This document shows, in pieces, positions 3,147-42,635 of a stretch of DNA of 44,702 nt (the stretch's first letter is position 1; every line of letters starts with the position of its first letter). The notes under the pieces are model-generated. The model was given only the letters and a program-made list of their open reading frames with translations, did not search any database and was not told where the DNA came from. The stretch lies in the IMG/VR virus record IMGVR_UViG_3300030116_005601, positions 1 to 44,702 of that record. The stretch is one strand, 5' to 3'. The translations under genes and the position numbers were made by a program. Source of the DNA: a virus.

Positions 3147-3290
3147 GTGGATTTTTATGTAGAAGATGCAGTTAAGGAGTTGTCAAAGAAGCTTGAAGAT
3201 TTATACTATAGAGTATATACAATGCAAGATAGTATAGCTGAATTTAATGCAATTATTACTGAAATAAAAGAGGAGAGTAGAGATGCCTAG
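3147..3290 (+). CDS. hypothetical small helical protein, 47 aa
   Basis: Starts at GTG 3147, placed 5 bases after AAAGGAG. The product VDFYVEDAVKELSKKLEDL... is a likely coiled coil with heptad-like Leu and Ile residues. Its last codons overlap the start of the next gene by 8 bases, so the two are translationally coupled. The next product is also helical, so they may be partners. No family is recognised. Confidence 0.55.
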   Translation: MDFYVEDAVKELSKKLEDLYYRVYTMQDSIAEFNAIITEIKEESRDA

Positions 3291-28351: not shown

Positions 28352-30700
28352 ATGGCTAGAAAAAGTAGAACAGCAGATATATTATCAGGTGCATTTCAAG
28401 ACCTGTCTAGATTGGCTATGAGCCAACAAGCTAGTCAACGATCTCAAGAACTAAATGTAGAAAGTAGTTTAATTGACTTAGAAATACGTGAATTAAATAA
28501 TAGTATAAGCAATCTTCAAAATAATATAGAGACTTTTGAAAATAGCATAGAATCAACTGCAGGTCAAGTATTAAACTTAAGTGATGAATTTAAAACTGCT
28601 GGTTATGAAAAATTTAGCACAAATCTAACAGACTCTACCTTAAGCCCTTTGGTAAATAAGGTTAATCAATTAAGGCAAAGAGAAGCGAGCTTAAAGCAAC
28701 AAGAAGCTCAACTGCGGCAACTACAAATACCATTATCTCAAATGGAAAGTTTTTATCAAGGAGCTTCTGCTGACCCTGCTTTTAGTGGAGATCCAAAACT
28801 ATTTGATGATCAGGACTTTAGTGTAGACGCTTTTAATGCACAGTTTGATACACAGTTTGACGATTATAATGAAGAAATGCTAATGTTTATGTCAGGAGCT
28901 AGATCAAACATAGAGGCAAGAACAGCAGTTAATAGGTTAGCTAGTGAATCAGCTTTATTAGACGCAAATACAAAAGCTATACAAAATCAATTATTAACTC
29001 AAAAGCTTAAAGCAGAGCAAGATAATTACTCAATAGAAAACATAAAAAATGATATGAATCAAAATATTCGTGCTTTAAATTTTGCTACAAAATTAGAAAA
29101 TGTTCCTATAAATTCTGATATATACAGAAATCTTCTTACCCTATCAAGCAAGGAAGAAGACTTATCATCTACTGAAAAAGGCGAACAAAGTAAATTGTAT
29201 CATGCACTAGGCTATATAACCAATCCTAATACCTTTGGTCAGCCAGTTGTAGACAAGCAAACACTTGATGTTGAATTATTATCATTGCGTAATAACAATA
29301 TTATAAGTGAAGAAGAATATAATGAATTAAGTAATGAATATATTGATCGTGGTAAAAAAGTATTTAAGGCATTATTATCTGCTACTGAACGTCCTACAGG
29401 AACTATGGAAGAAAAATTACTTAGTGGATATAAACGCAAATCTGCATATTATGATTTATTAAAAGAAATATCAGATGCATATGAAGCTACAGGAGTAATG
29501 CCTATAGAAATATTAGCTATTACTGGATATGAAAGTGAGTCAGATTTTTCTCGATTAGCACCCTTAACTTCACAATTAGCTGAAAGTATTTTAGATAAAG
29601 AAGAAGCTTTATTAATGCAGTCTATTCAAAAAGCTAGAAATGGATTGCCAGTACAAGATATTATTAATGAAACTGAAACTGGAGTACCAAACTTAGAAGA
29701 AGTTAATGAATCTATGCTATTAAACTTTGAGGATGCTACAGTTGATCCAGTATCAAGGCAATTATCGAAAGATGTTTTAGATAGCTTAAATATAATGCAG
29801 GGTATTACTGATGCAGAAGATGTACCAGATGATGAAATTATTGATGCTACTTTTGAGGAGGCAGATGAAGGTAACTTTGTAGGATTTTTTAGTGACATGA
29901 AAACATCATTTGGTAATTTTTTAGACAGTATAAATCCATTTGATTTTGATTTTAATCTATCTAGTCCTGATGAATTAGAACTAGAACCTTTTAACCCTAG
30001 TCAATTTGCTAGAAATGATGAATATCTAAAAAGTCAAAACCCAGAAGCTTATAATGAACTAAGGTCATTAGTAAATAGAAAAGAAGAATTAGAATCTATA
30101 ACATCTGATGCATCTAGAATTGTAGCATCTGCAGCTACAGCTGGCGAAAATGATATGGTTCAAAATGTAGGCAGAATTAATACTGACGCATTAAATGAGT
30201 TGCAAGGCATTGATCAAAGAATATCTAAAGCATATAAACAATTAATAGGTTCAACAAAACAAAAAGAAAAAGAAAGTGCAACATTAGATTCATTTGTTAG
30301 GAGGTATGAACCTGCAAATGATGAATATATTAATACTATAGCACAGATACTAAATGTAGACCCAAGCATACCATTAAAAGATATACCATTGCAAGATCTA
30401 GCTAATGCTATAGCACAAGGTGAAGGTTTCTATAATGATGAAGATCAAAACATAAGTATGGGTAGTGCTAGTCAAAATCCTGCACAAAGAAATAATAACC
30501 CAGGTAATTTAAAATTTGCTAACCAGCCTGGTGCTATAGGACAAGATGAAGCAGGTTTTGCAATATTTAGAAACGTTGAAGATGGATGGCAAGCTTTATA
30601 TAATCAATTACGATTAGATCAACTTAGGTCAGAAAATTATTTTAGTGATAGTAATTTTGATGATGCATTGTTAGCATTAAACCAACTGGAGAGTAATTAG
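28352..30700 (+). CDS. inner-virion protein with lysozyme-like C-terminal domain, 782 aa
   Basis: Long coiled-coil N-terminal part (residues about 1-240, Gln/Leu/Glu heptads), then helical segments. Residues about 673-780 form a peptidoglycan-degrading lysozyme-like domain: AIAQGEGF with candidate catalytic E691, and RNNNPGNLKF from R713, a motif known in phage virion lysozyme-type domains, with GFAIFRNVEDGWQAL after it. It should open the cell wall locally during DNA injection. AAAGGAG precedes ATG 28352. The stop and the next GTG overlap by one base, linking it to the giant protein. Confidence 0.75.
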   Translation: MARKSRTADILSGAFQDLSRLAMSQQASQRSQELNVESSLIDLEIRELNNSISNLQNNIETFENSIESTAGQVLNLSDEFKTAGYEKFSTNLTDSTLSPLVNKVNQLRQREASLKQQEAQLRQLQIPLSQMESFYQGASADPAFSGDPKLFDDQDFSVDAFNAQFDTQFDDYNEEMLMFMSGARSNIEARTAVNRLASESALLDANTKAIQNQLLTQKLKAEQDNYSIENIKNDMNQNIRALNFATKLENVPINSDIYRNLLTLSSKEEDLSSTEKGEQSKLYHALGYITNPNTFGQPVVDKQTLDVELLSLRNNNIISEEEYNELSNEYIDRGKKVFKALLSATERPTGTMEEKLLSGYKRKSAYYDLLKEISDAYEATGVMPIEILAITGYESESDFSRLAPLTSQLAESILDKEEALLMQSIQKARNGLPVQDIINETETGVPNLEEVNESMLLNFEDATVDPVSRQLSKDVLDSLNIMQGITDAEDVPDDEIIDATFEEADEGNFVGFFSDMKTSFGNFLDSINPFDFDFNLSSPDELELEPFNPSQFARNDEYLKSQNPEAYNELRSLVNRKEELESITSDASRIVASAATAGENDMVQNVGRINTDALNELQGIDQRISKAYKQLIGSTKQKEKESATLDSFVRRYEPANDEYINTIAQILNVDPSIPLKDIPLQDLANAIAQGEGFYNDEDQNISMGSASQNPAQRNNNPGNLKFANQPGAIGQDEAGFAIFRNVEDGWQALYNQLRLDQLRSENYFSDSNFDDALLALNQLESN

Positions 30701-33700
30701 TGGATCCAAAAAGAAGAGAAGAAATACGAAGATTACAAGAAGAACAAAGAGCTTCTGGTAGAGTGAATATAACTACTGGCACATCGCCTGTAGTTAGTAA
30801 AGGTCTTTCAGTAATTCCTAGACCACAGTCAACAGATATAGTAGATGATCAACCAAGCAAGATTCAAGAAATGTTTGGCTTAGGAGAAACAAGTGGAGAT
30901 TTAGTTGGAAATATAGCTGCTGGTTTTTTTGATCAATTAATGCTCCCTACATTTATTGATGTAGCATCTGAAGTTAGAGATGAAGGTGTTTATGTTCCTG
31001 GTGTTGGGCAAACAAAAGATTTTTCTAGTGATGTATTTGGTTCTGAAGATTGGGCAGACGAAAGTTTAGCTGGTAAAATAGGCTATGGATTAGGTTCAGC
31101 TTTTGGTTTATTTACAGGGGTAGGTGCTGTATCAACACTATTAAGAGGTGGATCAAAACTTGCTGGCGTTGCTGGATTAAAATATGCAGGTAAGAAAGTT
31201 GCAGAAGCTGGTGGTGAAGCTATTAGTCAAGATGTTGGTGAAGCTATTGTAAATCGCAGCAGTAAGATAATTAAAGATGCTAGCAAAGCAAGAGCAAATA
31301 GTTTATATAAACCTTATAATATACGAAAAAAAGCACATCTTACAAAAAATCCTCTTGCAGATGAAGCAATACTTATTAATGCACAGAACACACTAAAAAA
31401 AGATTTAGCAGAAAAGTTTGGAAATCAACTTACTGCTAAACAATTAGATGAATTAGCAAGAGTATCATTAAAAGAAGGTGCTGATTATATTAATTCTAAT
31501 TTTAGTTCTAGCATTTATGGATACATGGTCAAAAAAGGCTTTAGTGATAAGGTGGCTAGATTTACAAGTTCTAGTGCCTATGAGTCGACACTACTAGCTA
31601 CACATCAATGGATGATAGGTGAGGGATCTGAGCTAATAACTAAAGGGTTACTTGGTAATGAGATTGAAGAAGAAGTTGGTGAAGGTTTATTTATGCCAGG
31701 CTACAAAAGAGCTATACAGGGTGCAACATTAGGGTTTGGATTAGGATTAGCAAGATTAATACCTGGTGGTAAAAATGTACAATTTTCTAAATCTATTGGA
31801 GCATTTGAGTATGCACCTGTTCAAGGTTCATTAGCAGATGCTATGACTATGGGTAAGGTTATTAAAAATAGATTTTCTAGAACAAGCAAGATGAAACCTA
31901 AACAATTACAAAGAGCATTATATACTCAGTGGGTAGGTTCAGGAAAATCAAGCAAATGGATGAGGGATGAGCTGCCTGGATTTGCAAAAAATATATTACG
32001 TAAAAATGCTGATGATCTAACTACACAAGATATTAATATGTTAAGAGAAGCATGGAAAGTTACTAGAAAAAATACACCTAAAGTAATTGCTGATCTTGCT
32101 AAAGAAATTAAAGGCGATCTTAAAGGATCGTTCCCTAGAATGTTTGTAGGTAGTCTTATTATGAATGCTCAATCTTTCTATGATAGAGGTGGATTTGAAG
32201 TTATAGGAACAGATCAATATCCTACAAGTGAGTTTTTAACTGACTTCTTAACAGGCATGATTTATACTAAACGTGGTGTAGGTATGGTCACTAAACCTAA
32301 AGCTCCTAGATATTTTAAAGAAACAGGAATGGATGCTAATGGTTATGAGCTAGAAAGCTATGTTAAATCATTAGAGATACTAGGATACAACGATGAGGCT
32401 ATTGGACCAATTACTGCATTGACAGGTAAAGGTGAAGCTGAGATACTAGCATCTATAGAAAGAAGTGATTTTATTGAAGGTACTCCAGATGCTAAAGTAT
32501 TATTTGATCAGGTATATGAAAATACAGTCACTGGTTCAGAGTATGTCAATAATATTGATCCAGAGAAAAAACCATGGCAAGTACATGCAGCTGAAGAAAA
32601 AATTAGCTTAATTAGAGAATTAGAAAATGCTGATGCAGCAACCAAAGATCAAATTGAAAAACGATTAAGCAATATAGAAAAACAAGAAGCTATTGTAAGT
32701 TATGTAGAAGAAGCAGCAATGACAGGCATAAAAGGTCAAAGACTAAAAGATATGTCTAAAGATGAAGCTCTAGCATATCTTTCTGATGTGTCATCTGGAA
32801 CATTAGATAACAAGCCATTAAATCCATTAACTGTTAGAGAGCAAATAGAAGATGCACTAATTAAATCTGCTAATACTCAAACAGAAGATACTTATCAAGT
32901 AATGAAAGCATATATAGAAGATTCAATGGCTGCATTAGGTTATCCTATAGATCAATCACAAGATGGTTTTGGCAGACCTATATTGCATCAAAGTTTGCTT
33001 GATTTGGTTGCTACTCAAAAAACTGCTAAACAAAATGAATCTAACGAACATATTGATGCAGCTGATATGTTGTATGAAGTATTAAGCAGAGCTGGCAGCA
33101 GAGAATCTGGCATGATTAACGTTACGTCAGGAGAAGGTGGCTTAAGGTGGAACGAAGCTGCTACTGTTACTGCAGAACAGAGAACAGCACTAAAAGATAT
33201 ATACAATTCTACAATGGATTATTTCCATACTAAATATTATAATGATGGTAATATTAGATGGAATCAATCTATGCCACTATACAATGGCATTGAAGGAGGG
33301 TTTTCTAACCCTAATTTATTATCCAGTGACATAATATTTATGGGTATTGGCAAATATCAAAATTTTAAAAGACATCAAGATATATATAACGTATTTACAA
33401 ATAAAAATAATGATTATGGTGCAGAAAGAAGTGCATTGCTATCACCATTATTTAAAGGTAATGGCACTGCTATACCTAAGGTAGAAGACTTGGCTAACTT
33501 TAGCCCTGATGATAAAAAGCTATTAAGACGCATAAATAATATTAAGTCAATGCTTGATCCATATGGAGGCAGTGCAACATCTATTGAAGTATCTGCAAGT
33601 GAATTAAAAAACTTTAGTACTAAGTTAATACAATCTTTTGGAACAAGAGAAGGTCAAGATATATTTACCAATGATCAATCATATAATGAGTTTAAAGCCT

Positions 33701-36700
33701 ACATGAATAGGCAGATTATCAAAGATCTAACAGGCAATCAATTATTAGATAGTGGCTTAAGAAATGCATTATCATTGGCTTTTACACCTGATAATCCAAT
33801 AGCATCAAAAGCAAACAATAAATTAAGAATTGTTAGAGCAAAAAAATTAGAAGAGATACTATTAAAAGCAGAAGCTACTGGATCAGTTGACAACCCTGTC
33901 ACAGAATCAACATTAAACTTGCTTAATGATTATAAAACTATAGTAGAAGATCCACTAATTAAAGCTACAGCTAGTAATAAAAATATTACATTTGTAGATA
34001 GAGAGATACCAATAGAATTTTACTCTACTGACATGATTAAGTCACAAATTAAAGAAATGATTAATGCAGCTAGTTTCTCTGATATATCACAGTTTAACAC
34101 ATTACAAAATACAGTATCTCATTTAGGTGAAGATATAGCAGTTAAAATAGAATCATTAAAAAAACTATCAACAGCTGCTAAAGATAGAAAGCTAACAGAT
34201 GATTTAGCGATTAGTGCAGAAAAACTAACACAATCATATTCTAATTTAAAAAATGCTATTAATATGTATAGCTCTACTGGTGATGCTGTAGGATTAAGGT
34301 CTATGCTTGATAATGTAAATGACTTAAGAAAAATGCAAGTCAAGTTAAGAAGTGATATTAATCTCCCAGAGACTATTAAAAATACTAGAGATGTGATAGA
34401 TGAGTTTGTTACTAAACATTTAGAGATTAATAATTCTAAGTATGATCTTAGAAATATGGAAGATGTAGAAAACTACATACAAGAAGCAGAACGCAGTTTA
34501 GACTTTGAAGAACAGAGTCAAAAAGTTCATTCTAAAAACACATCAATATCAGATAGTCAATATGCATTAAGATGGTTAGATGGTGATGTATCTCAATTAG
34601 AAATATTAAAAAAGAACCCAATAGAATTGCTTAGAAATGTATCAGATTTAAGCCAACAAGCTCAAAATGTAATTAAAAGATTTGATGAGCTAAAAGGAAC
34701 AGACAAAGAAATATCATCATTTGACGAGTTTAAAAGAAAAACTAACATAGATACTGACTTGTATATAGATCTATTTATAAAGCCTATTGTAGAGGGTAGA
34801 AAGAGTATAATAGAAGCTAAGTATAATGCATTAACACGAGCAGAAAAAGATAAAAGCAGTTATGGTAGTGCAGCAGATATGTATGATAACTATGTACTAG
34901 ATACTATGCAAATACTGCAGTCAGGATTAGCTAATACAAAATTTCCTATGGTTATTTTTAACAATGGTACATTTGAAATATCATATACCAATATATCATC
35001 TTGGGACAGGGGTGTTAACTCATTAAGAAAAAATTTAAATCTAACAACACCAGGACACATAGCATTAATAGGTACTAAGTTTGCAAATGAAAAAACCATA
35101 AGGACTAGACATTCTGTAGCAACGCTTAATGACATGTTTAATAAAATTAAAAAAGGTACTGCAACAGAGATTAATGTTCAGTCTTTATTGTCAGATAATG
35201 ATAAAGCACTGTTAAAAGACTTTGGTCCTAATGCGTTTGGTACAGGTCAAGATGGCACTGCTCAATATAGACCTATAGTATTAGATGAAAAGTCTATGAT
35301 TGTTGTACATCAAGCAGCATATGACAATATAGTCAATTCTTTCTCTGCTGCTGATTCTGATAATAGAAAATATTTAAACAATCTTGTAGGTGAAGCTAAT
35401 GCTAATGCATATTTAAACAAACTAGTAGACGCTAGTATTAATGAGGACGGTCATGCTTTAATTAAACCTATTGGCAAAAATGTAGATAGTTTAGTTTTGT
35501 TAACTAGACTAATGCATGCAATGCCTCATAAAATGCCTGAAGTAATAACAAAAGGCATGGACATTGATGATACAAGATCAATGCTTAAATATATTAAGCT
35601 AGATAGCCCAAGAACTGGTATGGCATTAAATAAAGACTCTGCTGACTTTGCACAAGCATATCTTAAAAAGGTATTGCCCAAAGGTCACATTATGCAAAGT
35701 GCATTTAATACATTTAAAAAACAAACATTTAACGAAGATGGCAGCTTAAAGCCACAAAGAGTTCTTACTATTAGAGATGAAAAAGGTGCAGGTGATTACT
35801 TTTTTGATACGCAAGTTAGAGGTATAGACCTTATGACTAAACAGCTGATTGAGAAAAGAAAACTTTCTCCTGAAGTTGCTGAAAAAGAAGCCAGGACTAT
35901 TATGGATAAATATGAGCCAATAGCTGCATCGATAGTAAATGGTGAAAAATATTTATCTAAACCTGAATTTATTGCACAGTTAGTACAAAAAGGTGCACAT
36001 CCTGACTTTTTTGAGTTTAATAAAAATGGTTCTATAAAAGGATTTAAGGTTGCAATAAAACCTGTTGAGTATGATGCACAAGTAAAAGATAATGGCGAGC
36101 TATCTGTTTATATTGGTAAAACTGCATATAAATATTCTCCTGCATTTGATGCTATGATGAAAGATTCACAAGGCAACTATGTAATGGATGCAATAACATT
36201 TAAGAGCTCTGTAAAAGAAAATGCTTTTAGATCTGGTTCAGATGCTGATATAGTTGAAAAGATGTTAGAATTACCCGAAGGTTTATCTTTAGACAACAAC
36301 TGGATAGATGTTTTGGGCGTAGCAGTAAGAGATAATTTTAGTGCTAAAGATCATATTTACAATTTGCCAAGAGAGTCAATATTTATTAAATCTATATCTA
36401 GTGAGCATGAAGCTACAGCATCAGCAGCATTTACTAACTTTACTACAAACGATGCATTAACTGCTATGAATAAAATTACAAACATGCAAGCTTCAATCGA
36501 TGATGCAGTTACAGCCTACAAGAGTTTAGATGAAAGCTTATTTGCAACACGCAATATTGCCAACCTGCTTAAAGGGCCAGCATATGAAGCAGGTGATAAC
36601 ATGATGCAAGCTATTGGAGTAGAGGGCATTTTGCAGTCAGGTGGTATACCATCTTTTGAATATATGGCACCACAACTACAAAGATCTATTGTGTCTGAGT

Positions 36701-39700
36701 ATTTAGGAAAAAGAAACTGGGTTAGCAGTAAAATGAAGAATGGTTCTTATCCTGTAATGACATCAGGGGAAGGATACAGCTTACCAATAATAGAAGATAA
36801 TGTAAGAAGAACACATGGTGGATCAGGTATGTCTGGTCAAGATTGGAATAAATCTGTTTCAGGTTTGTTTGGCGGTAGCAATGAAGGAGTAAGCTTAGTA
36901 TTTACAGTTGACGATGCAATAGTATCTAAGCATAAAAATGTAGGTTTACAGCCTGGAGATGATATAACTGTTACTTTTGATGGAGAGGTATTATTTCCAG
37001 GGTTATTAGCAGGAAAAAGCAAAGATTTCAACCCATTAAAAAAAGAACTGCTTGGTCATTTTAACTCAATCATTAAAGATGCTAAGGCTACAAAGGGCAT
37101 AGAAACTGTAGGTGATTTTATTTCTTTTGTTGATGGCACACTTGGAATGCCGCTTAAGAAAAATAAAAATGGTGATATTGTCATTGAAAATGGAGATAAT
37201 TCATATAGTAAAAAAATTGCAATTAATAATAATCAAGCCTATCAAGCAATTCATTTAGCTACTGTAGATTTAAGAACTCCTATGGCTGGTATTAATGATA
37301 GAGTAATTACCAAAACAGAACGGCTATTAAATAGAGAGCGTGGGCCAGTATCTGAAATAAACTTTTTAGATGTTATTGACCCTCAAGATGCAGACTTTGA
37401 TTTAGATAAATCTTCTAGATTTTTTGCATTGCCTGGACAAGTAATGAAAGAAATATATTATTTATCAGGACATATGGATCCTGCATCTGATGTATTTTTT
37501 AGAGAATTAGATTCTGTAGCACCTACTAGCAATAGAGATATGGCTAAATATAGAGTTAAAATGGAAGAGCTTGCATCTAAACGAGGTATAGTAGTAAGAG
37601 CACATTCTGTAAATTCTATACTTTATCAAATGGCTGCTGCAGAAGCAAGAACACAAGGTAAAGATCCTGTAGACTATTTAGCAACAGAACAAGTAGCTGG
37701 TAAATCTGTTTTTTCAAACAGAGAAAATAATGTTAAATATGATATTGTATACAAAGAAGGCCGAGATCAAGTTAACTCTGTGCAATTTGTTAAAAAATTA
37801 GTAAAAGAAACTATAGATATATATAAACGTTATGGAGATATAGCACCAAATGAAATAGAAAACTATTTGTTTTATAGTGACAAAGCTCCATTTAGAGCAA
37901 GATCAAGTGAACTAGATGATATATCGTTTCAAGAGTTGCAAAACAATGCTCCTGAAACATATAGGCAATATCAAAATTTAGTTAATAGAATTGTAAGACC
38001 ATTAGGAGAGTTATTTAACCTAACTAATATGGGTGAAAGAATGTCTGATGGTACTGTTCGTAAAATGAATATGTGGGAAATAAATAGCACATTTCAAAAT
38101 ATAAAACGTAAAATTAAATTAGCTGGTGATTCATGGAGCCAAGGCAAAGATGGTAGATGGACTAGATCAGACACACCATTAAAAGGTTTTTCAGACCAGG
38201 TTCTTGGGTTCCTTGGAGAAAAAACAGCAGAGCTAGGAACTTCTAGGCATCCGTTAGTCCAAGGTTTAATTAAAATTGAAGAAGGGCTAAAGCAAAACTT
38301 TACATACAGACAGAATTATGGTGGTGCATTTGCTAGAGCAATTGAGAGTAAAACTAAATTACAGCCAGAGCAAGTTAGTAATGCAATAAAAGGCATTCTA
38401 TCTGATCAAAAGCGATATATGGAAGTAGAGTATCTTGCATGGGAAATAGAGCAAATAGAAGACAGTATGGCAAGCTTAAGAGCATATGGCAAAGCAGGAA
38501 GCCAACGATATAGAAACTTAAAAACAAAGTTAGAAAATTCTAATATGCTATATCAAACTTTTAATGAGGAGCTTACTAATAAAGAAATTGGAGTAAGAAA
38601 ACCAGCTAAAAGAAATCAAAAGAATAAAGTATTTAAAATGCCTGTAACAATATTGCGTCAGGGCAGACCTGATCCTGAGACTGGAAGACCAACTGTTCTT
38701 AATACAGGTAGATTTGCAGATGCTAATCAGCCGATTGATATATTTAAAGGTGATATAGCTGTAACTAATTATAAAAAATTAAAAGTTGAAAACAGCAATG
38801 TAGTTAAACAAAGAAGAGCAATGCATAATGCTTTTGCTAGACAGTTGTCTACTATATCAGACGGTGAAATGAATGCTATAGAGATATTATTTAAAGACTA
38901 TAAGCGTAAAGTATTTCAAGCACCTAGCTCAATCTATGATGCTAATACTCCTACAAGCTTTAATAAGTTTGGAATTATTAATGAAGCTAAGTTATCTGTT
39001 TTGTCAGATTATTTAAAACGTGCATATAACAGTGCAGAGTATGGTCGTGGTACAGAAATGCAAAAACAGTTTTTAATGCGTGTATTGACCCCAGATCTAG
39101 AGTTAAATACATTTAGCGTAACAGGGTATGACCTAGACAATAATCCTCAAATAACACCTGCATTTAAGCCAAATAAACAAAATGAAAGGTTAGTCTTTAC
39201 ATTGTTAGATAGAGCTAAATTAGGACATGGTACATCATTGCCTATGGAAGCTAGTATTGGTAAAGATATACATCAATTTATTGTAGATGCACATAAAAGA
39301 GCTTTAGTTTTAGAGTATAACCCATCACTAAAAGGAGATGTTTTTAACGTAGCAACCAAAAAGAGAGATCCAAGAGATGCATCTTTAATGGCTTTGCCAA
39401 ATGATTTGCCTGAGTTTATGATGAATCCTGATGAAAACTACAATCAAAAAGCTGTTAATGTATTACGATCTATGTTAACTGGTACATATCATATGAGTGA
39501 TGCTGAAATATACCGCATGACATATAAAATGTATGAAAATAACCTTGGTGAAGTACCTAACCCTAGTGAAGTATCTAAACTGATGAATAGTGTATGGCAA
39601 GGTGAAACTAGAAGGAGAATAGACCCTTCAAGCCAACATTATGGTACTGATGCTACATACAAAGAAACATCTAATTATCAATCAGACACTAAATCAAATG

Positions 39701-39744
39701 CTGTATATGAACTTAAAAAGAAATTTAGACCGGGAGACTGTTAA
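30700..39744 (+). CDS. Giant virion protein, candidate two-barrel RNA polymerase, 3014 aa
   Basis: Very large protein in the ejection block, starting at GTG 30700 (one-base overlap with the previous stop). Residues 2230-2237 read DADFDLDK, with D2232, D2234 and D2236 matching the metal-binding DxDxD of the beta'-type double-psi barrel of RNA polymerases (beta' NADFDGD). R2192, P2194 and G2197 (LRTPMAGIN) lie 40 residues before, against about 35 between RAP and the Asp triad in E. coli beta'. crAss-like phage virion RNAPs and YonO use the same loop; a Lys after the third Asp also fits my memory of crAss-like versions. The N-terminus (about 120-150) is hydrophobic and Gly-rich, suited to ejection. 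The other 2000 residues match nothing I know. Virion location is inferred from position. Confidence 0.65.
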   Translation: MDPKRREEIRRLQEEQRASGRVNITTGTSPVVSKGLSVIPRPQSTDIVDDQPSKIQEMFGLGETSGDLVGNIAAGFFDQLMLPTFIDVASEVRDEGVYVPGVGQTKDFSSDVFGSEDWADESLAGKIGYGLGSAFGLFTGVGAVSTLLRGGSKLAGVAGLKYAGKKVAEAGGEAISQDVGEAIVNRSSKIIKDASKARANSLYKPYNIRKKAHLTKNPLADEAILINAQNTLKKDLAEKFGNQLTAKQLDELARVSLKEGADYINSNFSSSIYGYMVKKGFSDKVARFTSSSAYESTLLATHQWMIGEGSELITKGLLGNEIEEEVGEGLFMPGYKRAIQGATLGFGLGLARLIPGGKNVQFSKSIGAFEYAPVQGSLADAMTMGKVIKNRFSRTSKMKPKQLQRALYTQWVGSGKSSKWMRDELPGFAKNILRKNADDLTTQDINMLREAWKVTRKNTPKVIADLAKEIKGDLKGSFPRMFVGSLIMNAQSFYDRGGFEVIGTDQYPTSEFLTDFLTGMIYTKRGVGMVTKPKAPRYFKETGMDANGYELESYVKSLEILGYNDEAIGPITALTGKGEAEILASIERSDFIEGTPDAKVLFDQVYENTVTGSEYVNNIDPEKKPWQVHAAEEKISLIRELENADAATKDQIEKRLSNIEKQEAIVSYVEEAAMTGIKGQRLKDMSKDEALAYLSDVSSGTLDNKPLNPLTVREQIEDALIKSANTQTEDTYQVMKAYIEDSMAALGYPIDQSQDGFGRPILHQSLLDLVATQKTAKQNESNEHIDAADMLYEVLSRAGSRESGMINVTSGEGGLRWNEAATVTAEQRTALKDIYNSTMDYFHTKYYNDGNIRWNQSMPLYNGIEGGFSNPNLLSSDIIFMGIGKYQNFKRHQDIYNVFTNKNNDYGAERSALLSPLFKGNGTAIPKVEDLANFSPDDKKLLRRINNIKSMLDPYGGSATSIEVSASELKNFSTKLIQSFGTREGQDIFTNDQSYNEFKAYMNRQIIKDLTGNQLLDSGLRNALSLAFTPDNPIASKANNKLRIVRAKKLEEILLKAEATGSVDNPVTESTLNLLNDYKTIVEDPLIKATASNKNITFVDREIPIEFYSTDMIKSQIKEMINAASFSDISQFNTLQNTVSHLGEDIAVKIESLKKLSTAAKDRKLTDDLAISAEKLTQSYSNLKNAINMYSSTGDAVGLRSMLDNVNDLRKMQVKLRSDINLPETIKNTRDVIDEFVTKHLEINNSKYDLRNMEDVENYIQEAERSLDFEEQSQKVHSKNTSISDSQYALRWLDGDVSQLEILKKNPIELLRNVSDLSQQAQNVIKRFDELKGTDKEISSFDEFKRKTNIDTDLYIDLFIKPIVEGRKSIIEAKYNALTRAEKDKSSYGSAADMYDNYVLDTMQILQSGLANTKFPMVIFNNGTFEISYTNISSWDRGVNSLRKNLNLTTPGHIALIGTKFANEKTIRTRHSVATLNDMFNKIKKGTATEINVQSLLSDNDKALLKDFGPNAFGTGQDGTAQYRPIVLDEKSMIVVHQAAYDNIVNSFSAADSDNRKYLNNLVGEANANAYLNKLVDASINEDGHALIKPIGKNVDSLVLLTRLMHAMPHKMPEVITKGMDIDDTRSMLKYIKLDSPRTGMALNKDSADFAQAYLKKVLPKGHIMQSAFNTFKKQTFNEDGSLKPQRVLTIRDEKGAGDYFFDTQVRGIDLMTKQLIEKRKLSPEVAEKEARTIMDKYEPIAASIVNGEKYLSKPEFIAQLVQKGAHPDFFEFNKNGSIKGFKVAIKPVEYDAQVKDNGELSVYIGKTAYKYSPAFDAMMKDSQGNYVMDAITFKSSVKENAFRSGSDADIVEKMLELPEGLSLDNNWIDVLGVAVRDNFSAKDHIYNLPRESIFIKSISSEHEATASAAFTNFTTNDALTAMNKITNMQASIDDAVTAYKSLDESLFATRNIANLLKGPAYEAGDNMMQAIGVEGILQSGGIPSFEYMAPQLQRSIVSEYLGKRNWVSSKMKNGSYPVMTSGEGYSLPIIEDNVRRTHGGSGMSGQDWNKSVSGLFGGSNEGVSLVFTVDDAIVSKHKNVGLQPGDDITVTFDGEVLFPGLLAGKSKDFNPLKKELLGHFNSIIKDAKATKGIETVGDFISFVDGTLGMPLKKNKNGDIVIENGDNSYSKKIAINNNQAYQAIHLATVDLRTPMAGINDRVITKTERLLNRERGPVSEINFLDVIDPQDADFDLDKSSRFFALPGQVMKEIYYLSGHMDPASDVFFRELDSVAPTSNRDMAKYRVKMEELASKRGIVVRAHSVNSILYQMAAAEARTQGKDPVDYLATEQVAGKSVFSNRENNVKYDIVYKEGRDQVNSVQFVKKLVKETIDIYKRYGDIAPNEIENYLFYSDKAPFRARSSELDDISFQELQNNAPETYRQYQNLVNRIVRPLGELFNLTNMGERMSDGTVRKMNMWEINSTFQNIKRKIKLAGDSWSQGKDGRWTRSDTPLKGFSDQVLGFLGEKTAELGTSRHPLVQGLIKIEEGLKQNFTYRQNYGGAFARAIESKTKLQPEQVSNAIKGILSDQKRYMEVEYLAWEIEQIEDSMASLRAYGKAGSQRYRNLKTKLENSNMLYQTFNEELTNKEIGVRKPAKRNQKNKVFKMPVTILRQGRPDPETGRPTVLNTGRFADANQPIDIFKGDIAVTNYKKLKVENSNVVKQRRAMHNAFARQLSTISDGEMNAIEILFKDYKRKVFQAPSSIYDANTPTSFNKFGIINEAKLSVLSDYLKRAYNSAEYGRGTEMQKQFLMRVLTPDLELNTFSVTGYDLDNNPQITPAFKPNKQNERLVFTLLDRAKLGHGTSLPMEASIGKDIHQFIVDAHKRALVLEYNPSLKGDVFNVATKKRDPRDASLMALPNDLPEFMMNPDENYNQKAVNVLRSMLTGTYHMSDAEIYRMTYKMYENNLGEVPNPSEVSKLMNSVWQGETRRRIDPSSQHYGTDATYKETSNYQSDTKSNAVYELKKKFRPGDC

Positions 39745-42635
39745 TGCTTTGCTTAAGTAAAGATGAAAAACAAATAAAACAATTTGATAAATTTTTAGAA
39801 ATATCTAAGCTGTTAGACGGGAATGCAAAAGTATCTAAAGCAGGAGATAATAATGCAGAGACTGCTTTGTGGCTATTTAAAAAAGCAAATGGTGGTGACT
39901 TTGATTATGAAAATATACCTATTGAAGATCATCATCTTAAAAGATATAAAAGAGAAGTTAAAACATATTTAAAAAACTATGAGAAAATGCCTACATGGTT
40001 TCAAAAACATTTTTACATACCAGCTGCACTTATGAGAAATATTAAAGGTGGTGATGAATTTTATAATAATGTTGCAGAAACAATGTCTTTTCATCAAAGG
40101 CAAGTAAAAGAAAGCCAAGATCATATTGGAGCAATGACACAAGGTTTATATGATATGATTATAGACCAGGGTTGGAACGAACAAGCTTATGGGGATTATG
40201 CAAAGTTTGAGCGTACATTAATGACTGTTGAAAATCCAGATCAAATGAAAGCTATGATTAAACAGCTAGGCGATATAGTTGGAACAGTAGATCAACCAGA
40301 GGGTAATATGCCTATAGGTGGCAAAGTATTAAGAAGATTTCAAGGGTTATTAGAATATACTGTTGAGCCTGTCAATGATAATGAACGCATGATACAAAGA
40401 GAATGGAATATATTAAGAGCATCTTCTGTAAATAATTTATTGAATGGTATTGTTATGTCTAAAATGGCTATAAGGTCAAAGCTTGCTAACGATCCTGAAG
40501 CAGAATATTTATTAAGATCATTAAGAAATTTACAAGATAAAGCTGATGAGTTATTGTTAAGCACAAGCCAAGATAAAAAAATTGTTACTAAAGGTGAAGC
40601 AACTGAAGCTGGTGATATTAATGCAGATATTAAAGTATACAATCCTGCTACTAAATCATACGAGCCATATAGGGTACTAGACTCTGATACAGGTCAATTT
40701 GCATATGGTATTAAAAAATATGTACCATCGTATGTAATAGAGTTAACAGCATTAATGGATAATATTGTAGACTATGGCATGAATAAAAACAAAAGTAGAT
40801 TTAAAAATAAATCTGCTGAAGATATAGAAATAGAAACACAGAATATAATTAAGTCAGATTTAAATACAGCTAGATTAAAAGCTAAAGGTGAAACTGAGTA
40901 TTTAAAATCTTTAGATCCAGTATACTATCTAAATAAATATGCTAATGATGTTGCAAGCTTTAATGCAAGAGCTAGAATTAATTATGCATTTATGGAAGGT
41001 ACTAAAGTACTAAGAAAAAATATTATTAATGATGGCAAATATAAAGGTGGCAACACTGGTGATTATGCACATACTATGATAGATATGATGACACATATAA
41101 AAGATAGTGCATTGAATCAACATAGAGGTCAAATGGATTCATTAGATGACATTGTTCAAATTGTTAATGCATTTGAGTATGTATCTAAACTAGGATTTAG
41201 TATTAGGGGTGCAGTAAAAAACAGATCTCAAAGATTATTTAATTATGTTTTCTATGGAAGGAAAGGACTAAAAAGATCAAAAGATTGGATAGCTAGAAGT
41301 AGTAGAGAGTTTGAGTTTACTCCTGGTGAAGAAGGTAAGATGAGAACTAATGCACAAATTATAGCTACACAAAAGAAACGATTTGGTTATGAAATGACTT
41401 CAAGTAGATCTGATGCATTTAAATCAGCAGCTACTGGTGGTTCAATAGATTTTTTATATGTGCCAAAAGGTTTTAGTTTAGACAAGCAAGGTAAATTAAT
41501 ACCTGAAGGAGCCAAAGGAGCATTAAAAAAAGTATCTGAAATTGCATCTAAAGCTACTGATATATCTTCTATCACTATGCAATGGGCAGAAAATAAAAAT
41601 AGAAATGAAACATTTGATATTGCATTTGCTAATTCATATGTAACAGAGCAAAAAAATATAGAGTACCATAAAAAACAATTAAGACAAAAGTTAAAAAGAG
41701 AACCTAGCACAAAAGAAATATACGATAGAATAGAAAATGTTGCTGGTAATATGGCAAATCAAATGGTGCGTACAATACACTATGATTATGATACATGGGC
41801 AAAAGCAAAAGTATTAGGCACAAAGCCTGGTAAAGTTTTAGGACAGTATCAGCACTTTAAGTTTGCATTCTTTGATATGCAATATAATATTATTAAAAAT
41901 GCTGTCAATGATGTTAAAGATTTAAGCTTAATTGAAAAAAATCCAATTACAGGTCAAAAACAAATATCTGAAAACGTTCAGAGGATGATGAGACTTGGAG
42001 CCATTTATACCATTATACCAGGTATTGCAGGATACTTTGGATTAGACTTAGGTGGTTTGTTTGGTACAATAGGCAATCCATTTGATGAAGATAGAGAAAG
42101 CACAAAATCATCTACTAAAATTATTGAAAACCCTGTACTTGAAGATATAGAAAATTTATATACATACTTTACATCAGATGATCCAACTGCAAGAGCCGCT
42201 GCATATTATGGCAAAAATCCAATTACAGGAAACTTAGGTCCATTTATTAGTGACCTTATGATGATAGCAGAGTTAACTGACTTTATTAATCAAACAGATG
42301 AAGAGTATGCAGAAAGTAGACATTTAAATTATGATCCTGATAGCTCAGACTGGTGGTATAATGTTGGAAGAATATTTAGCATACAAGGGGCAAGGACATT
42401 TCATCATAGTATCCCTGCATTAAGAAGAGGAGATATTGCTGGGTTAGCTAGAGTTGAGCTTGGTATATTTCAACCTAAGTGGATGAAAAATCATAGAGCT
42501 AGAGTTATGGGCAAGATTGATGACATATACAATTCTAGTAAAATGTTACCTAATATTAGAACTGGTAAAAAGAAAAAAGGTGCAGGCCTTTCATCACAAA
42601 GAAAAAAAGCAATACAAGCTTTAAGAAATTTTTAG
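39744..42635 (+). CDS. large inner-virion protein, 963 aa
   Basis: TAATG-coupled to the 3014-aa gene. Mostly helical and charged. A C-terminal region has LGQYQHFKFAFFDMQYNIIKN-like helix (residues about 695-720) and then a hydrophobic stretch GAIYTIIPGIAGYFGLDLGGLFG (in part, near 752-775), followed by a basic C-terminus (TGKKKKGAGLSSQRKKA). This resembles C-terminal segments of large ejected polyvalent proteins in marine podoviruses. It may travel with the giant protein into the cell or be a second part of the same complex. No catalytic motif is visible. Confidence 0.6.
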   Translation: MLCLSKDEKQIKQFDKFLEISKLLDGNAKVSKAGDNNAETALWLFKKANGGDFDYENIPIEDHHLKRYKREVKTYLKNYEKMPTWFQKHFYIPAALMRNIKGGDEFYNNVAETMSFHQRQVKESQDHIGAMTQGLYDMIIDQGWNEQAYGDYAKFERTLMTVENPDQMKAMIKQLGDIVGTVDQPEGNMPIGGKVLRRFQGLLEYTVEPVNDNERMIQREWNILRASSVNNLLNGIVMSKMAIRSKLANDPEAEYLLRSLRNLQDKADELLLSTSQDKKIVTKGEATEAGDINADIKVYNPATKSYEPYRVLDSDTGQFAYGIKKYVPSYVIELTALMDNIVDYGMNKNKSRFKNKSAEDIEIETQNIIKSDLNTARLKAKGETEYLKSLDPVYYLNKYANDVASFNARARINYAFMEGTKVLRKNIINDGKYKGGNTGDYAHTMIDMMTHIKDSALNQHRGQMDSLDDIVQIVNAFEYVSKLGFSIRGAVKNRSQRLFNYVFYGRKGLKRSKDWIARSSREFEFTPGEEGKMRTNAQIIATQKKRFGYEMTSSRSDAFKSAATGGSIDFLYVPKGFSLDKQGKLIPEGAKGALKKVSEIASKATDISSITMQWAENKNRNETFDIAFANSYVTEQKNIEYHKKQLRQKLKREPSTKEIYDRIENVAGNMANQMVRTIHYDYDTWAKAKVLGTKPGKVLGQYQHFKFAFFDMQYNIIKNAVNDVKDLSLIEKNPITGQKQISENVQRMMRLGAIYTIIPGIAGYFGLDLGGLFGTIGNPFDEDRESTKSSTKIIENPVLEDIENLYTYFTSDDPTARAAAYYGKNPITGNLGPFISDLMMIAELTDFINQTDEEYAESRHLNYDPDSSDWWYNVGRIFSIQGARTFHHSIPALRRGDIAGLARVELGIFQPKWMKNHRARVMGKIDDIYNSSKMLPNIRTGKKKKGAGLSSQRKKAIQALRNF

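Follow-up and report, generated by a model that had tools for sequence, protein, structure and literature searches.

A proposed single-chain virion RNA polymerase in a giant late protein of non-crAss phages, and a terminal-cysteine signature common to it and crAss-like virion cargo

Single-chain RNA polymerases (RNAPs) with two barrels are described from phages and from cells. Among the crAss-like phages, the virion RNAP is gp077 in phi14:2 (KC821624; structure 6VR4) and gp50 in crAss001. QDE-1 and RDR2, eukaryotic polymerases of RNA interference, are cellular, non-packaged proteins of the single-chain, two-barrel kind; N4 gp50 (~3500 aa), which is ejected with the DNA and whose gene is flanked by those of ejection proteins, is a T7-type single-subunit polymerase of unrelated fold. 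For crAss001, mass spectrometry placed gp47, gp49 and gp50 among the cargo of the virion, and these proteins are believed to cross the tail partly unfolded (PMC10172136). Outside Crassvirales, gp96 of the long-tailed phage P23-45 was first found through its D-x-D-x-D string: its clampless RNAP makes up the N-terminal ~1200 residues of a tape measure protein that is 5002 residues long (PMC10770324). YonO of SPbeta (~100 kDa), a phage single-chain two-barrel RNAP whose Asp triad is needed for catalysis, transcribes late genes and is not described as packaged (PMC5467207).

The stretch of DNA analysed here (the window; a viral record 44,702 bases long) encodes, in a late operon whose genes overlap at their stop and start codons, a 3014-aa protein (the giant) that we consider, with a probability of about 0.92 and on the strength of motif conservation, the fold similarity of a relative, gene order and the cysteine pattern, to be a single-chain two-barrel (double-psi beta-barrel, DPBB) DNA-dependent virion RNA polymerase of the branch that includes the crAss-like phage RNAPs and QDE-1. 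The relevant features are the following (window coordinates; A7, alignment described below; L031, modelled relative):

28352..30700 (+): preceding gene, 782 aa, without cysteine; C-terminal match to tail tape-measure / injection transglycosylase PHROGs
30700..39744 (+): giant, 3014 aa, proposed single-chain virion RNA polymerase; GTG start overlaps the preceding stop (TAGTG)
30901..31149 (+): residues 68-150, glycine-rich hydrophobic segments (hydropathy maxima)
35347..38379 (+): polymerase core, residues 1550-2560, homologous to the modelled part of L031 (A7, model, fold searches)
35935..36396 (+): proposed DPBB-B (beta-like barrel), strand-rich, ~residues 1746-1899 (model secondary structure)
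36058..36060 (+): K1787 (IKP), invariant A7 column
36118..36120 (+): K1807 (KTA), invariant A7 column
36214..36216 (+): K1839 (K-x-N), invariant A7 column
36787..37434 (+): proposed DPBB-A (beta'-like barrel), strand-rich, ~residues 2030-2245 (model secondary structure)
37273..37290 (+): R2192-x-P2194..G2197 motif; crAss YRIP is invariant at the same spacing
37393..37410 (+): D2232-x-D2234-x-D2236-K2237, proposed Mg-binding triad, invariant in A7
39739..39741 (+): C3014, last residue and sole cysteine of the giant (cysteine scan)
39744..42635 (+): next gene, 963 aa, proposed tethered cargo partner; start overlaps the giant's stop (TAATG)
39750..39752 (+): Cys3, sole cysteine of the 963-aa protein (cysteine scan)

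The motif on which a preliminary description of this DNA had based its proposal of a single-chain RNA polymerase is present: translation of window:37261-37413 (51 codons in a single open frame) gives TVDLRTPMAGINDRVITKTERLLNRERGPVSEINFLDVIDPQDADFDLDKS, in which R2192, P2194 and G2197 are followed, 40 residues on, by DADFDLDK (residues 2230-2237). The pattern R-x-P, 28-48 residues, D-x-D-x-D-K occurred once in the window (all frames of at least 100 aa, ~15,200 residues), once in a phi14:2 half-genome and once in a cr118_1 segment, in the latter two inside the RNA polymerase; neither the other phi14:2 half nor the unrelated podovirus API480 contained it, and of 3000 shuffled versions of the window protein 4 did.

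Successive scans yielded a family of 41 sequences (2940-3213 aa, window included), every one from uncultured phages, among which the motif is conserved far above chance. In alignment A7 (39 relatives, mean column identity 26%), K1787, K1807, K1839, R2192, P2194, D2232, D2234, D2236 and K2237 (window numbering) are invariant; the D-x-D-x-D triad typical of two-barrel RNA polymerases is thus kept in all 39 aligned relatives. The preliminary description is to be made more precise here: the conserved triad consists of D2232, D2234 and D2236, followed by the invariant K2237, whereas D2230 is replaced by Met in relative L156. Since the variants DADYDMDK, DADNDFDK and MSDYDYDK retain the triad and the Lys, D2230 is neither part of the triad nor essential.

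The relatives are 19-40% identical to the window giant over the whole length, whereas portal identity to the window, compared for eight of these phages, is 59-82%; the giant evolves fast. A genome-contig search for cellular or proviral relatives found none in species genomes; named-phage searches with the giant, its relative L029, a second giant from contig G002 and the 963-aa protein gave no usable match. Sequence searches of Pfam, PHROGs, NCBIfam and PDB (protein and alignments) returned no RNAP match and left the giant without any naming profile; the lack of a match to a T7-like family in Pfam, PHROGs or NCBIfam separates it from the N4-type polymerases. The second giant (2830 aa; L202:959-9451, minus strand, in the second unit of G002) occupies the same gene position as the window giant and shows no similarity to it detectable by phmmer. 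It carries RANAQGDWDGDHV, including NAQGDWDGDH, a beta'-like D-x-D-G-D triad, and ends in CR with Cys 2829 as its sole cysteine, the sole cysteine of its downstream partner being Cys 4; it possibly represents a further RNAP lineage, and its triad in a sister phage counts as an additional hint in favour of the polymerase reading.

Comparison with 75 crAss RNAP sequences revealed short blocks in the same order (crAss / family: tDAQ..iT / VDGE.FLS; PLK / IKP; KYS / KTAxKYxP; vDe..f.SgvKvG / VDAITFKSANKIN; YRIP / RxP; GSDFDIDK / DADFDxDK), and K1787, K1807 and K1839 follow the order of three crAss RNAP lysines. The proposed DPBB-B segment holds KTAYKYxP and D-x-I-x-F-x-S-x-x-K-x-N, collinear with crAss KYS and vDe..f.SgvKvG. 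The profile-profile comparison proposed in the preliminary description did not bear out a relationship at this level: hhalign of the family against the crAss RNAPs (default settings) gave no significant match, the short matches being separate and mostly collinear, and tblastn detected no crAss RNAP similarity. The collinear score was 55-84 for the real sequences, 22-39 for reversed, 18-37 for fully shuffled and up to 79.5 for block-permuted ones, the last being near the real score and in some comparisons above it. Because hhalign was not significant and the block-permuted controls came this close, the collinear blocks, which are all that the two groups have in common in sequence, are taken as consistent with a relationship and not as its proof.

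Evidence for the fold comes from a structural model of a relative. A first model (window residues 1430-2629, 16-sequence alignment) had a pLDDT below 50 in the barrel region and matched nothing, its fold search being meaningless. The second model, of relative L031 (39 sequences; 22% identical to the window protein over the modelled region), reached a mean pLDDT of 84.1 and a pTM of 0.82 for the core and contained two strand-rich segments at the places expected for the barrels. Two-barrel RNA polymerases made up 43 of its best 50 PDB matches, with QDE-1 at ranks 1, 2 and 4, RDR2 at ranks 3 and 9, and the largest subunits of Pol I, II, III and IV also present; all E-values exceeded 0.1, so that none of these matches is individually significant, and the phi14:2 structure 6VR4 was not among the best 50. 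Against BFVD (predicted viral structures), 18 matches had E<=1e-3, the best at 6.4e-27 (1130 columns, TM 0.64). The top matches are unnamed; the five named ones are all giants of crAss-like phages, that from cr111_1 being annotated as ‘Putative RNA polymerase [cr111_1]’. In the cr118_1 giant (4946 residues), YRIPTQG...GSDFDIDK lies at ~3170-3215 and should fall in the matched third quarter (piece 3) of the protein. The strongest unnamed matches (A0A516L9L2 and other A0A516 entries, E 6e-27 to 1e-9) indicate that relatives are already deposited, apparently without polymerase annotation. The fold-level test suggested beforehand thus turned out in favour of the proposal, the PDB yielding two-barrel RNAPs almost exclusively and the viral models crAss-like giant RNAPs; encoded in one ORF, and with QDE-1 as best PDB match and crAss-like giants as best named viral matches, the protein groups with the single-chain (crAss / QDE-1) clade.

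It was considered whether DADFDLDK might have arisen by chance, as an acidic or Ca-binding string of an ejection protein that is purely structural and devoid of polymerase activity. The giant lacks a profile match to any RNAP, and such strings do occur: the N-terminus of the E. coli polysaccharide exporter Wza, DVIKQQDADFDLDK, contains DADFDLDK (PDB chains 26gs_O, 9xgv_C, 9r60_A) and was the only PDB match of the family profile around the motif site (E 0.002). This match was rejected as a coincidental resemblance to the RNAP triad, of a kind that can mislead motif searches, and because of it the string alone is not diagnostic. In Wza, however, only ~34 residues of the deposited chain precede the string, whereas in the window and in the crAss RNAPs an R-x-P lies ~40 residues upstream of the triad; together with the invariance of triad and Lys in the 39 aligned relatives and a fold search that favours two-barrel polymerases, this largely refutes the chance-string explanation, which we regard as very improbable. 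That the late genes include a two-barrel protein with another role, e.g. a primase, a PolD-like DNA polymerase or an RNAP that is not part of the virion, is improbable as well, if to a lesser degree. Archaeal PolD also has a two-barrel core (PMC10770324), and a related 55-kb genome unit encodes a DnaB-like helicase and an ERF recombinase with no DNA polymerase among the ORFs scanned. Against this stand the location of the giant gene between the injection-transglycosylase-like gene and that of the terminal-cysteine partner, starts and stops overlapping; the best structural relatives, which are crAss-like virion RNAPs and QDE-1/RDR2, PolD being absent among the matches listed; and the cysteine depletion and terminal Cys that the giant has in common with virion cargo.

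In a virion RNA polymerase of this kind, D2232, D2234 and D2236 would bind the catalytic Mg, R2192 and P2194 would belong to the same barrel as the triad, and two of the three lysines K1787, K1807 and K1839 would be supplied by the second barrel of the same chain. The giant would be made late, alongside the products of portal, capsid and tail genes, and stored in the particle, its packaging being suggested by the gene position and by the terminal-cysteine signature common to crAss virion cargo. It would then be ejected unfolded ahead of the DNA, with residues 68-150 as a possible membrane-crossing part during ejection, and refold in the cell to transcribe the first phage genes.

The cysteine signature is found throughout the family. 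A Cys lies within the last 10 residues in 41/41 giants and is the sole Cys in 40/41 (~3000 residues each); outside the last 10 residues the giants contain 0.008 Cys per 1000 residues, compared with 7.2 per 1000 in the other proteins of the window (the giant's two neighbours excluded). The product of the next gene, with a similar-sized protein at the same place in 37 loci, has exactly one Cys in all 37 readable loci (among them the near copies L004-L006), at residue 3-11 and in the window at residue 3. The crAss-like phages are organised alike: in phi14:2, the sole cysteine of gp078 is its last residue, C1797, the RNAP gp077 has two, C3 and C2179, and the sole one of gp076 is C3; in crAss001, the sole cysteines of gp47 and gp49 are C2339 (of 2341 residues) and C5, respectively, and gp50 has three, C5, C1334 and C2404 (of 2412). 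Across the crAss set, both cysteines were found at 35/39 downstream and 27/27 upstream junctions, and in three of the four downstream exceptions both were missing. N4 gp50, gp51 and gp52 contain no cysteine at all. Alignment of the 963-aa protein with crAss gp076 covered only the first 15 residues and was not significant. No mention of terminal cysteines was found in the literature surveyed, to which the original phi14:2 RNAP structure paper did not belong.

From this pattern we lean towards a model in which single disulfides between proteins otherwise free of cysteine connect giant virion RNAPs and their partners head to tail, so that they are threaded through portal and tail as an uninterrupted chain and come free in the reducing cytoplasm; phage lineages without detectable RNAP sequence similarity would have this device in common. 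The junctions would be C3014 to Cys3 of the 963-aa protein in the window, where the bond between the two lone cysteines would let both proteins enter as one chain, gp47-gp50-gp49 in crAss001 and gp078-gp077-gp076 in phi14:2. It is conceivable, if rather unlikely, that the terminal cysteines are not bonded to each other and instead mark portal or DNA docking, metal binding or a nucleotide constraint of the overlapping genes. Disulfides are unreported for these cargo proteins, Bayfield et al. describing them only in portal-vertex and tail proteins (PMC10172136). The strict one-to-one pairing of C-terminal and N-terminal cysteines at the crAss junctions counted above nevertheless speaks against unbonded cysteines, as does their position in the partner proteins, which varies from residue 3 to 11; gene overlap cannot be the cause of the pattern because crAss001 gp47 is encoded on the strand opposite to gp50 and gp49.

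With the crAss-like virion RNAPs the giant has in common the single chain, the R-x-P that precedes D-x-D-x-D-K by ~40 residues, the order of three Lys blocks further upstream, a giant late gene beside tail genes, the best named structural matches, and a scarcity of cysteine in which a C-terminal Cys has its counterpart near the N-terminus of the following gene's product. It shows no significant sequence similarity to them, is longer (3014 versus 2180 aa), and has neither an N-terminal Cys nor a third chained giant upstream. It resembles QDE-1 and RDR2, the top PDB fold matches, in its single chain and proposed two-barrel architecture but not in any detectable sequence similarity; P23-45 gp96 as a proposed single-chain two-barrel RNAP of the virion, contained in a giant protein and encoded by a non-Crassvirales phage; YonO as a putative phage enzyme of this architecture; and N4 gp50 in size, proposed ejection and genetic neighbourhood but not in fold or in terminal cysteines.

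The genome setting also differs from that of crAss-like phages. The window encodes a P22-type portal, an SU10-type capsid protein, a terminase and an adaptor; the portal matched only Paenibacillus phages and one unclassified phage, and all TerL matches listed were to non-crAss phages. By its portal and capsid type the phage is therefore not crAss, and the assignment to a lineage outside the gut crAss-like phages, raised as a possibility in the preliminary description, agrees with portal, capsid and terminase. As neither sequence homology to the crAss RNAPs nor a Crassvirales genome context was found on testing, the giant is not filed as a Crassvirales RNAP. The assertion that the window holds no other polymerase proved correct for every ORF scanned. 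The related contig G002 (IMGVR_UViG_3300030107_004423, L199-L203; 82.9 kb) contains duplicated metallophosphoesterase, DUF932, Hjc and adaptor genes and gives the impression of two related phages of ~55 kb each fused end to end, which may be a chimera of assembly; a genome unit of ~55 kb derived from it encodes the DnaB-like helicase and ERF recombinase mentioned above and an Hjc-like resolvase, and no polymerase was found among its early genes scanned. Two further window proteins may be recorded. An 82-aa protein (window:4122-4370, plus strand) matches the C-terminal 80 residues of many PHROGs of unrelated size and unknown function (E down to 8e-32) and is, judged from sequence, a small mobile C-terminal domain; a 1122-aa protein (window:15252-18620, plus strand) encoded among the capsid and tail genes has up to three Laminin_G_3 (concanavalin-like) stretches and is likely a surface-binding virion protein. 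A search for promoter repeats at the window ends gave nothing convincing.

The giant would add to the known single-chain RNA polymerases of virions a lineage outside Crassvirales that is widespread and unannotated. Since this lineage is widespread in ~55-kb phages, in whose genes scanned no other polymerase was found, such RNAPs are probably commoner than annotation shows. The cysteine signature makes testable how a megadalton protein cargo leaves the capsid in order and reaches the cytoplasm, and provides a rule at the sequence level by which ejected cargo chains can be recognised where homology fails. If joining by single disulfides holds, it would order the passage of the ejected proteins and free them in the reducing cytoplasm.
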